From Aliarcobacter lanthieri (GTDB lineage: Bacteria; Campylobacterota; Campylobacteria; Campylobacterales; Arcobacteraceae): a stretch of DNA of 64,000 nucleotides. The DNA lies in contig NZ_CP053839.1 in NCBI RefSeq assembly GCF_013201625.1, forward strand, positions 1,860,001 through 1,924,000. The letters are read 5' to 3'. Of this stretch, positions 2,809 through 11,427 are shown one piece after another. How positions within the stretch are numbered: position 1 is the first letter of the stretch; every line of letters starts with the position of its first letter. Both the position numbers and the translations under genes were made by a program. The notes beneath the pieces are model-generated. The model searched no databases, was not told the origin of the DNA, and saw only the letters and a list, made by a program, of their open reading frames with translations.

Positions 2809-4488
2809 CTATTTTATTAAACCTATTGCTGTTTGTAAAAACTCATCTGAAGTTGTAATAGATTTAGAATTTGCTTCAAATGCTTTTTGATAAACCATTA
2901 TTTGAGTAAGTGTTGTTCCATAGTCAATATTAGCTCTTTCAAGTGATTTTCCTTTTATTGTATTCATAGTATCAGCATTGAAAGGGTTTCCTGATAAATC
3001 TGTTTTTGAATATAGATTACCACCAGCAGGATTTAAACCTTGTTCATTTCTAAAAGCAGCTGTACTTAATCTTCCAACTAAAAATTTATTATCTCCACTT
3101 TTTACAAAGATAAATCCATCATCAGATATTTCAACATCAGCTACTTCTTTATCTGTTAATCCTAAAATATCTAATCTTACATTTATATCTGTCATACCAA
3201 TAGTACTCAAATCAGCATAATCCAAGACATTAGTTATCTCTAAATATTTAGCATCTGCTTTTTCAACAGCAGATTTTAAAGCTTCTTTTGCACTATCAAT
3301 CATAGACATTCCAGAACCTTTAATAGCTTCTTGAGTATTTGTAGATTTCAATTTTTCATCGTTTAACTTAATTTCACTTATTTTAAACTCTTTTCCTTGA
3401 ATTAAACTCTCTATTTCAATAGTACCACTTTTTGCACTTGAAGTAAATCCAGAATATGCTGAAATTTTATCTGATAAATCTTGCATAGCTTTTATTAAAC
3501 TATTTGCATTTGAATAAGCAGCAATATAGTCATCTCTTAAAGTTTGTTTATCTAATTTTGCTTGTATTTCTTCTGGAGTTGTTATTGGCATAGAATCAAT
3601 ATCAGCTTGTGTTGGAATAGTTGATGGATTAACCAAACCATATTTTGTTCTTCCACTATCATCTAAAAAGTTATATAAATTTTCCATATCTTCTTGATTT
3701 ATATTACCATTATGATCAAATTCTATACTAAAAGTTTTGTTTTCTATTGTAATAGTTAATTTATTTCCTTCTGGTACAAGAGATGATATTTTTGAAGAGA
3801 AATCAACTTGAGATTTCTGAGTTTGAGAAGCTACTTCTGGAACATTTGGTGTTAATTGATACTCTTTTAATTTATTTATATAATCTTCTCTTAAAGCATC
3901 TATATCATTTATTTTCGATTGTGAAGACTTATAATTATCACCTTTTAGTGAGATATCATCATCTTTTGCAGAAGATACATAATCTGTTGTTCTTGCATTT
4001 ATATTATAAATAGTTCCTAAACTATTACTGATATTTGTTGATACAATATTTTTTGTAAATTGATCTGTAAATATAGTATCAGCAGGATTTGTAGAACTTG
4101 TTAATCTGCTTTGAGGAACTAAACCTTGCATTTTATAATTATCTTGGTTTACTAAAAATCCATCTTTTGCTTGTACTAAGTTTCCAGCTCTTGTATAAAA
4201 AATTTCATCAGGATTTTCTCTACTTCTCACTATAAAGAAACCTTGTCCTTCAAGTGCAACATCTATTCCAACTCCTGTTCCTACAATTTGTCCTTGTTGA
4301 AATTGTTTTGAAATACTTTGGCTTCCTACTCCATATCCCATACCATTATTATACAACAAATCTGAAAAAGTTATTTGATCTTTTTTATGTCCAACTGTAT
4401 TAGAATTTGCTAGATTGTTTGACTCAACAGCTATTCCTCTATCTTGTTGATAAATACCTGACATTCCTTTCCACATTGCACCTATCAT
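2809..4488 (-). CDS. flgE: Second FlgE-type flagellar hook protein (559 aa)
   Basis: A paralogue of the neighbouring 728-residue hook protein: same N-terminal signature (MIGAMWKGMSGIYQQDRGI, SNNLANSNTVGHKKDQITFSDL), the 'GQGFFIVRS....IFYTRAGNL' block, and the C-terminal 'TQIMVYQKAFEANSKSITTS' helix. It starts 11 bases after the flgD stop, the classic flgD-flgE order, so by position this one is the canonical flgE. Two hook-type genes in tandem suggest duplication with divergence of the exposed domains; one may be a minor or cap-proximal subunit. It is secreted through the flagellar export gate and has no Sec signal peptide. Confidence 0.9.
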   Translation of the reverse strand: MIGAMWKGMSGIYQQDRGIAVESNNLANSNTVGHKKDQITFSDLLYNNGMGYGVGSQSISKQFQQGQIVGTGVGIDVALEGQGFFIVRSRENPDEIFYTRAGNLVQAKDGFLVNQDNYKMQGLVPQSRLTSSTNPADTIFTDQFTKNIVSTNISNSLGTIYNINARTTDYVSSAKDDDISLKGDNYKSSQSKINDIDALREDYINKLKEYQLTPNVPEVASQTQKSQVDFSSKISSLVPEGNKLTITIENKTFSIEFDHNGNINQEDMENLYNFLDDSGRTKYGLVNPSTIPTQADIDSMPITTPEEIQAKLDKQTLRDDYIAAYSNANSLIKAMQDLSDKISAYSGFTSSAKSGTIEIESLIQGKEFKISEIKLNDEKLKSTNTQEAIKGSGMSMIDSAKEALKSAVEKADAKYLEITNVLDYADLSTIGMTDINVRLDILGLTDKEVADVEISDDGFIFVKSGDNKFLVGRLSTAAFRNEQGLNPAGGNLYSKTDLSGNPFNADTMNTIKGKSLERANIDYGTTLTQIMVYQKAFEANSKSITTSDEFLQTAIGLIK

Positions 4489-5199: not shown

Positions 5200-5487
5200 T
5201 TATATCATATGTTCATCAAAGAAATATCTAACAACATTATCAGAATCCATAGCATCTTGAACTCTAACTGCTAGTTTCTCATCAATTACGATTATATCAC
5301 CAGTTCCTATAATCCTTGAATTTACATAAATTTCTCCACCAGAACCTGCTGGTTTATGCAAAGAGATTATATCACCTTCTGTTAATTTCAAAAATTCACC
5401 AATAGATATACTTGTGCTACCAAGCATAACATCAACAACAATTTCTGTATCAACTAATAAATCATAAACTCTTTCACTAATTTCCAT
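5200..5487 (-). CDS. fliN: Flagellar motor switch protein FliN
   Basis: At 95 residues it is essentially one SpoA/FliMN C domain (TEIVVDVMLGSTSISIGEFLKLTEGD... GGEIYVNSRIIGTGDIIVIDEKLAVRV). FliN forms the bottom of the C-ring, works with FliM and FliG in rotation switching, and docks FliH-FliI export complexes, which fits fliH lying directly upstream. No FliM or FliY gene is present in this cluster, so the other C-ring parts must be encoded elsewhere. It lacks an EIDALL-type N-terminal CheY-binding motif; that motif type is instead seen on the CheZ encoded further up the operon. Confidence 0.85.
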   Translation of the reverse strand: MEISERVYDLLVDTEIVVDVMLGSTSISIGEFLKLTEGDIISLHKPAGSGGEIYVNSRIIGTGDIIVIDEKLAVRVQDAMDSDNVVRYFFDEHMI

Positions 5488-10164: not shown

Positions 10165-11040
10165 TTAATTACTAAATTCTGCTATTAATTTATCTAAATC
10201 ATCACCAACTAAATCTTCTGTATCACTATCACCATGAATATGTCTAGCCATAGGTATATCTTTTGGATTATCTTCTTCGAAAAGATTATTTAAATAAATA
10301 GATAATTTTCTAATAACAGACATTACTCTTTCAATTTTTTGTCTATTAATATCATTAAATTGCATTAATTCCATACCTTGGAAGATATGCATATCTTCGT
10401 CATCTATTGACGTTTTCAAAGCTTTTAAAGAGCTTTCAAAGTTTTTTACTTTTTCTAATTGTTGTTGAAATATATTAATATTTGGGAATTTATTACTTAA
10501 TGAGTTCAGAAGTCTTTCTTGAGATAAACAAAATTCTTCATACTCTTTTATTTTTTTTCTTAGTTCCCCATTATTATCTAAAGTTAAACTTAATACATCA
10601 AAAATTTGAGAAACTTTTTCTTCAGAATCATTTGCAACTTGGCTTAATTGTGTAACAACTTTTGTATCATTTTCTGCTGGGAAAGGAAATACTCCTTCAT
10701 TTATTTTTGAAGAAGACCACTCTTTTACAATTTCTTCTTTTACTTTATCATCTTCTGCTTCATTACCTTTAATATTTTTTGGAGTATTTAGTTGTTCTTC
10801 TACAGCTTTTTCATCTATATCTTGCAAGAGAGTTTCAATTTCATTTATTTTTTTATCACTTGAAACAGGAATACTATCTTTATTGTCATCATTATCAACT
10901 TGAGATAATAATTCTTCTATCTCTTTTGTATTTATTTTATCTTCTTCTTTTGGCTCTTCTTTAGCAACATCCGTACTGTCATCACTTGGAATATCCAAAC
11001 CATTCATCAAGGCTTCAATATCTTCTTGACTCATACTCAT
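10165..11040 (-). CDS. cheZ: CheZ-type CheY-P phosphatase with FliM-like N-terminal motifs
   Basis: CheZ removes the phosphate from CheY-P and ends the switching signal. In the 291-residue protein the stretch MELMQFNDINRQKIERVM (about 223-240) matches the catalytic helix of E. coli CheZ (the Asp143/Gln147 pair); the equivalents are Asp230 and Gln234. The acidic-hydrophobic end (DDLDKLIAEFSN) resembles the CheZ C-terminal peptide that binds CheY. The first 90 residues are acidic and probably disordered, and hold three similar motifs: SQEDIEALMNGLD (4-16), TKEIEELLSQVD (38-49) and INEIETLLQDID (65-76). These resemble the FliM/FliN N-terminal CheY-P-binding peptide. cheY lies 15 bases upstream, supporting the call. 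The overall similarity to enterobacterial CheZ is weak; the remote H. pylori type is the better comparison. Confidence 0.82.
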   Translation of the reverse strand: MSMSQEDIEALMNGLDIPSDDSTDVAKEEPKEEDKINTKEIEELLSQVDNDDNKDSIPVSSDKKINEIETLLQDIDEKAVEEQLNTPKNIKGNEAEDDKVKEEIVKEWSSSKINEGVFPFPAENDTKVVTQLSQVANDSEEKVSQIFDVLSLTLDNNGELRKKIKEYEEFCLSQERLLNSLSNKFPNINIFQQQLEKVKNFESSLKALKTSIDDEDMHIFQGMELMQFNDINRQKIERVMSVIRKLSIYLNNLFEEDNPKDIPMARHIHGDSDTEDLVGDDLDKLIAEFSN

Positions 11041-11055
11041 AGCAAACCCCTTAAT

Positions 11056-11427
11056 TTATTTTTTCAAAACACCATCTAATTTTTCTTTTAAAACTTCTGC
11101 ATTAAAAGGTTTAACTATATAGTTATTAACTCCTGCTTTTAAAGCAGTAATTACTTCACTTTTCCCACCTTCAGTAGTAATCATTATAATTGGTGTTTTT
11201 TGATGAGTTCCTTCACTTCTTACTTTTTTAACAAGTTCTAAACCATTCATATTTGGCATATTCCAATCTGTTAAAATAACATCATAGTGTCCTTCTGTTA
11301 ACAACTTCCAAGCTTTTAACCCATCCTCTGCTTCATCAAAACTCTCTTTATTAAATCCTAATTGCATAACTACATTACCAATAATTCTTCTCATTGTTGA
11401 GCTATCATCAACTATTAGTATTCTCAT
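11056..11427 (-). CDS. cheY: Chemotaxis response regulator CheY
   Basis: A single receiver domain of 123 residues. Visible active-site residues: Asp7-Asp8, phospho-acceptor Asp54 (ILTDWNMPNMNG), Thr84 (MITTEGG) and Lys106 (YIVKPF). When phosphorylated by CheA, CheY binds the flagellar switch and changes rotation. It is the first gene of the flagellar operon and is followed by its phosphatase CheZ, so signal and off-switch are co-expressed with the motor. The ATG at 11427 has AGAGG six bases upstream. Confidence 0.95.
   Translation of the reverse strand: MRILIVDDSSTMRRIIGNVVMQLGFNKESFDEAEDGLKAWKLLTEGHYDVILTDWNMPNMNGLELVKKVRSEGTHQKTPIIMITTEGGKSEVITALKAGVNNYIVKPFNAEVLKEKLDGVLKK

Follow-up and report, generated by a model that had tools for sequence, protein, structure and literature searches.

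In FliM and FliY, 'EIDALL' is described as the conserved motif that binds CheY, and the N-terminus of FliM as a recruiting site which raises the local CheY-P for the middle domain of the rotor, with a quoted Kd of 27 µM for the FliM peptide (PMC9126983). FliY provides a precedent for a CheY-P phosphatase bearing a FliM-type docking peptide, although it belongs to the CheC family and is part of the rotor (PMC9126983), and the motif is also described for FliY of Bacillus subtilis (PMC8809382). In CheZ of Escherichia coli, a C-terminal CheY-binding region is known (PMC7750401). CheZ of Helicobacter pylori dephosphorylates CheY-P, as reported elsewhere and cited in PMC11237671. Deletion of its N-terminal region was reported to affect neither phosphatase function nor the biofilm phenotype, while the C-terminal region was needed for phosphatase function, and the function of the N-terminal region was called unknown in this 2024 paper (PMC11237671). 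For Arcobacter, CheYz, which among five CheYs keeps Trp58, Lys91 and Lys119, was suggested to be the one that meets FliM, and cheYz-cheZ were suggested to remain from an ancestral F3 system, with an acquired F7 kinase now driving them (PMC9321776). No FliM-like motif in the N-terminus of CheZ was found in the titles, abstract openings and passages of the open-licence literature that were searched.

The window analysed here is a stretch of 64,000 nucleotides of Aliarcobacter lanthieri, and the features of its cheZ locus are listed in Table 1. The CheZ protein shares 86% identity with its homologue in Aliarcobacter vitoriensis. It was matched by the NCBIfam model NF041271 (Phos_CheZ) with an E value of 6.5e-36 and 124.1 bits, which is under the cut-off of 350, so the protein is filed as a CheZ relative and not as an NF041271 equivalog. 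Pfam PF04344 (CheZ) gave no match to the window protein up to E 1 and no match in the whole genome at E 0.001. The whole-protein similarity to E. coli CheZ was barely detectable by hhalign (E 0.0022, probability 13%, 45 columns), and in a weak profile match Asp230 and Gln234 align with Asp143 and Gln147 of E. coli CheZ. In CheZ phosphatases, a long two-helix hairpin of each subunit contributes to the four-helix bundle of the dimer, and two long helices are predicted here. In the AlphaFold2 model, the hairpin block had a pLDDT of 83-96 over residues 131-250, lower at both ends. A fold search with the CheZ model returned nothing from the PDB at E 0.001 or below, and the CheZ profile had no match up to E 0.01 among the sequences of solved structures. 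A second look at the fold matches showed generic helical proteins; the matches listed did not include E. coli CheZ, which means little for a query that is a bare hairpin.

Table 1. Features of the cheZ locus (positions are those of the window; residues are those of the CheZ protein)
Feature	Position	Strand	Remarks
cheY (CheYz)	11056..11427	(-)	15 bp upstream of cheZ; closest solved relative H. pylori CheY 3gwg, E 2.2e-44
cheZ, Campylobacterota type, 291 aa	10165..11040	(-)	ORF, ATG at 11040
Motif 1, residues 4-15, FliM-type N-terminal peptide SQEDIEALMNGL	10996..11031	(-)	Predicted helix 5-12
Motif 2, residues 38-49, internal copy TKEIEELLSQVD	10894..10929	(-)	Predicted helix 39-49
Motif 3, residues 65-76, internal copy INEIETLLQDID	10813..10848	(-)	Within predicted helix 61-83
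CheZ helical hairpin, residues 124-255	10276..10671	(-)	AlphaFold2 helices 124-184 and 189-255
Catalytic DINRQ, Asp230 and Gln234	10339..10353	(-)	Invariant in a 28-sequence Arcobacteraceae alignment
C-terminal CheY-binding peptide (putative), residues 278-290	10171..10209	(-)	Conservation 0.92 in the genus; predicted helix 278-290

The C-terminus of the window CheZ (DDLDKLIAEFSN) corresponds to ASQDQVDDLLDSLGF of E. coli CheZ. Its peptide DDLDKLIAEF, following a flexible linker, appears CheZ-like, and a permissive pattern for this peptide matched 149 of 151 rows. The window CheZ resembles H. pylori CheZ and other Campylobacterota CheZs (NCBIfam NF041271) in having a predicted hairpin with D-x-x-x-Q and a putative C-terminal CheY peptide. 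With E. coli CheZ (PDB 1KMI, PMC3035606), it shares the aligned catalytic Asp/Gln and a C-terminal peptide that looks to be of the same kind, whereas by eye the N-terminal sequence of E. coli CheZ has no FliM-like peptide. In several Arcobacteraceae genomes, a second, short CheZ-like gene was observed (L212-L229, open frames of 92-168 aa), in which the catalytic D-x-x-R-Q and the C-terminal peptide are present; the N-terminal MTQEELDAxM is kept in L212-L216 and L218 and is gone or hardly recognisable in the other twelve. No second CheZ match was found in the window's genome.

Three peptides related to the FliM N-terminus were found on the N-terminal arm. Residues 4-14 read SQEDIEALMNG, compared with LSQAEIDALLNG in E. 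coli FliM and LSQDEIDALLDI in FliM of the same genome. Motif 1 fits S/T-Q-x-E/D-I/L-D/E-x-L-M/L and is a variant form (SQEDIEALM) of S-Q followed by the E-I-D-A-L-L core, while in motifs 2 and 3 the core is present and the preceding S-Q is absent. The initial annotation, which had proposed a CheZ phosphatase with the catalytic residues Asp230 and Gln234, a CheY-binding tail, a FliM-like N-terminus and further copies at residues 38-49 and 65-76, is borne out on these points: the residues are right and the CheZ identity is supported, a candidate C-terminal peptide ends the protein, the N-terminus is FliM-like, and the two internal copies lie exactly at these residues. Motifs 1-3 and the C-terminal peptide would give four related short helices per CheZ subunit. 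Helices at the peptides are predicted by AlphaFold2, which places short helices on all four, set within a low-confidence linker (pLDDT below 50 at residues 15-36, 50-61, 81-99 and 260-275). The window's peptide differs from that of FliM in that it sits in a phosphatase instead of the rotor and is repeated within one chain, with internal copies without S/T-Q. FliY has a single copy of the docking peptide.

Both the N-terminal-peptide matrix and the CheZ C-terminal-peptide matrix scored motifs 2 and 3 of the window under the 5% per-linker threshold. Taken alone, the two internal copies are degenerate in sequence, and therefore the claim is carried by conservation and by the family-wide pattern. 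In 20,000 shuffles of the protein's own linker, at least two matches to [DE]I[DE]x[LI][LIM] occurred at a frequency of 0.0002, and at least two matches to the looser pattern acid-Phi-acid-x-Phi-Phi at a frequency of 0.00135. Conservation was measured as the mean frequency of the commonest residue in 31 CheZs of the same genus, and in order along the protein it was 0.94 in motif 1, 0.43 in the linker, 0.85 in motif 2, 0.36 in the linker, 0.71 in motif 3 (residues 66-77), 0.31 in the next linker, 0.80 in the catalytic hairpin and 0.92 in the C-terminal peptide; such values are inflated by aligners, which draw similar words together, and the words are also present in the raw sequences. In the 31 same-genus genomes, motifs 1-3 are conserved islands amid a scrambled acidic linker, so the conservation in relatives that the initial annotation had put forward as a check was found for all three.

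Motif 1 was present in every one of the 91 rows from Arcobacteraceae, which represent 90 genomes because L031 and L002 come from one genome; figures out of 91 include L031 and figures out of 90 do not. Seven of the 97 CheZ-matching family genomes were not counted, namely G046, G073, G076 (split gene), G048, G052, G071 and G097, the last four having partial or short-paralogue matches. G046 and G073 (L230 and L231), which stand outside the counts and were looked at only, both have motif 1 and internal repeats. Outside Arcobacteraceae, 60 CheZs, selected so as to span 41 genera and 11 other families, were drawn from 288 matching genomes beyond the family (327 less 39 family rows, hand count), and motif 1, including variants, was observed in 58 of them: 55 match the pattern outright, and L188, L202 and L207 are near variants. 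The rows without credit are L163, which has the letters and no usable start codon, and L181, which is not a full CheZ. In L163, the motif 1 letters are in frame and the expected start codon reads as a stop, either a true change of start or a sequencing error. The Campylobacterota homologues examined have an N-terminal MTQEELDALM-type peptide, as does the window CheZ. As far as sampled, motif 1 is a phylum-wide feature of Campylobacterota-type CheZ and is not special to the window gene, and the ancestor of the Campylobacterota CheZs probably already had the N-terminal peptide.

The internal copies were distributed differently from motif 1. A relaxed pattern, which was composed after looking at the sequences, matched 216 internal copies, between none and five in each linker; of the 90 Arcobacteraceae linkers, 88 had at least one, and L055 and L062 had none. 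In 200 shuffles, 22 copies were obtained on average (37 at most), in about 20 linkers (32 at most), and internal copies were found in 0 of 57 linkers outside the family (the 60 minus L163, L181 and L188). With a literal pattern near the wording of the initial annotation, 131 copies were found in 91 linkers against 9.2 in shuffled linkers (maximum 17, 300 shuffles), and none in the 57 outside linkers. These pooled counts are non-independent, the sequences being related; by genus, internal copies were found in 16 of 17 with the relaxed pattern and in 13 of 17 with the literal one. The linkers are 86-238 aa long in Arcobacteraceae (median 132), unlike those of other Campylobacterota CheZs, which are short (26-93 aa, median 46). 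To the extent that the sequences can tell, the internal copies are an Arcobacteraceae-specific expansion of variable number, and only these are special, unlike motif 1. The interpretation given in the initial annotation therefore stands for the identification as CheZ, for the three FliM-like peptides and for the conservation of these in relatives, while its scope needs changing, motif 1 being phylum-wide and the internal copies family-specific.

The peptides could also be ordinary amphipathic helices of an acidic arm, serving solubility, stability or dimer packing, with a likeness to FliM that arose by convergence on D/E-I-D/E-x-L-L. Such letters are favoured by acidic, leucine-containing linkers, the window's copies are degenerate, and reversed-pattern controls match as often in its own genome: Q-x-[DE]-I-[DE] had four matches (FliM, CheZ, a lipoprotein-like protein and one broken by a stop) and its reversed control five, and the paired-motif scan had one match (CheZ) and one in the reversed control, none of these scans being used as statistics. 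However, the composition-preserving shuffles yield at most roughly a tenth as many copies, acid-Phi-acid-x-Phi-Phi ranks third of 60 permutations (the two ahead of it being registers of the overlapping core Phi-acid-acid-Phi-Phi), and motif 1 is nearly invariant across the phylum sample. Convergence of ordinary helices is accordingly regarded as very improbable. The lipoprotein-like protein (L123, C1:1080096-1080118) contains LSQEEIDKLV, probably a chance match.

By score matrix, the internal copies look more like the C-terminal CheY-binding peptide of CheZ than like the FliM-type N-terminal one. When the false rate was set at 5% per linker, 71 of 91 family linkers had one or more copies by the CheZ C-terminal-peptide matrix, compared with 0 of 57 outside. 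Extra copies were found in 32 of 91 family linkers by the N-terminal-peptide matrix (CheZ and FliM), and the FliM-only and core-only matrices reached 37 and 52 of 91, each of the three with 1 of 57 outside. The N-terminal-peptide matrix does worse probably because the invariant Q dominates its score; the internal copies of the family lack the S/T-Q found just before the FliM motif. The number of copies is variable, and in two genomes it was changed by duplication of the DNA in tandem: L230 has a repeat of 69 bp x 2.7 (85% match) and L091 a repeat of 102 bp x about 2 (75-77% match), both of in-frame length. No DNA repeat array was found in L080 despite similar protein repeats.

The gene context of cheZ was also compared. 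In all 31 of the loci L001-L031 (L002 and L031 being one genome), cheZ is directly preceded by cheY; in the other 60 loci, most of them with short flanks, cheY was found in only 4. CheYz residues Trp55, Lys89, Tyr103, Lys106 and Lys116 correspond to E. coli Trp58, Lys92, Tyr106, Lys109 and Lys119, and the position of E. coli Lys91 is a glycine (G88) in the window CheY in a two-sequence alignment. Judged by these correspondences, the FliM-face residues are kept in CheYz. The flagellar cluster around cheZ, identified by eye, contains a rod/basal-body gene, a flgB-like gene, fliF, fliG, fliH, fliN and flgD. Two adjacent ORFs (535-2721 and 2809-4488, (-) strand, 728 and 559 aa) both appear by eye to be FlgE-type hook protein-like. 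The remark in the initial annotation that FliN of this operon (5200-5487) lacks the motif is true by eye, but it is beside the point, since FliM, encoded elsewhere in the genome (L100), has the motif MAEFLSQDEIDALLDIAE.

FliM is present in 94 family genomes, and in the 30 of these loci that were read its N-terminus was LSQ[DE]EIDxLL. The same N-terminus was observed in 30 loci read among the 40 searched in other families, where 28 were recognised by pattern and two by eye. A CheZ match was absent in 7 of 104 family genomes (G036-G039, G044, G047 and G070), and FliM was absent in all seven, as expected if flagella were lost. In G074, G097 and G098 (61-88% complete), FliM was absent and a CheZ match was present. 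An AlphaFold2 model of a read-through CheY-CheZ chain was too poor for docking (mean pLDDT 55.6, CheY blocks 39-64), and in this low-confidence model helices reappear at all four peptides.

From the peptide sequences and their distribution, multi-point capture of CheY-P is the most likely function of the peptides. With moderate confidence, the window protein is considered to be a CheZ-type CheY-P phosphatase in which a disordered acidic arm with helical docking peptides of the FliM kind captures CheY-P and hands it to the active site. Each peptide would bind the alpha4-beta5-alpha5 face of the neighbouring CheYz, preferably when phosphorylated, in the way known from the N-terminus of FliM and from the C-terminal peptide of CheZ in E. 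coli. The arm would draw CheY-P from the cytoplasm at several points and then pass it to the hairpin active site, a hand-over that would parallel the recruitment of CheY-P by the FliM N-terminus for the motor core. The internal copies would have been added in Arcobacteraceae, their number drifting. Competition with the motor, collection of several CheY-P molecules and a sharper decay, as proposed in the initial annotation, would be possible consequences. The peptide sequences, their conservation and distribution and the FliM-face residues of CheYz are observed and the helices are predicted, whereas peptide-CheY binding, its dependence on phosphorylation, the hand-over and any influence on the output of the motor are what we infer.

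The strongest published fact against this reading is that the N-terminal region of H. pylori CheZ was reported to be dispensable for phosphatase function, so an accessory role of the peptides is probable. Given the phylum-wide pattern, the deleted H. pylori region should hold motif 1, and if it does, motif 1 is not a catalytic requirement; its role may lie in kinetics at low CheY-P, in CheY-P sharing with the motor or in another partner. The same dispensability fits a non-catalytic role (PMC11237671), in which the peptides would act as a decoy or buffer, binding CheY-P mainly in competition with FliM and setting the motor threshold by sequestration with little hand-over, and they are of the same peptide class as the FliM N-terminus in the same genome (L100). 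The published affinity of the FliM peptide is weak, however (Kd 27 µM, PMC9126983), so useful competition would need much CheZ, and a function mainly in sequestration is considered unlikely. In toy kinetics with assumed constants, added sites gave faster decay and lower free CheY-P, a result that does not separate capture from competition.

Alternatively, the peptides would recruit CheZ to another partner, a different receiver-like or Campylobacterota-specific protein such as a CheV or CheA receiver, ChePep or CheO. The localisation signal of H. pylori CheZ has reportedly been mapped to the central CheZ domain, which counts against this explanation. CheO of Campylobacter jejuni pulls down CheA, CheZ, FliM and FliY (PMC9665402), of which FliM and CheZ share the peptide in the loci read, and ChePep is said to localise CheZ in H. 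pylori (PMC7750401, PMC11237671). CheO homologues, however, were placed mostly in Campylobacter, Helicobacter and Wolinella in a paper whose main text does not mention Arcobacter (PMC9665402), whereas the expansion is in Arcobacteraceae. Recruitment to such a partner is thus held to be quite unlikely, and multi-point capture of CheY-P is retained as the preferred function.

In the genomes sampled, CheZ of the whole phylum is marked by one FliM-type peptide, which Arcobacteraceae have multiplied, and this finding is larger than the one made in the single gene. A broader reading is offered only tentatively, as a possibility towards which we do not lean, in which Campylobacterota CheZ would be a FliM mimic and the duplication-tuned copy number of a multivalent, evolvable Arcobacteraceae array would set the competition with the motor after the swap of the sensory system. 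If this is true, the phosphatase captures CheY-P through the docking peptide that the motor itself uses, and about eight related peptides would be present per dimer here if CheZ is dimeric, and more in some other species. The near-invariant FliM-type peptide gives a concrete hypothesis for the N-terminal region of CheZ, the function of which is still called unknown in H. pylori (PMC11237671), and the Arcobacteraceae arrays would provide a natural series of extra-copy numbers for asking how valency affects a signalling phosphatase.
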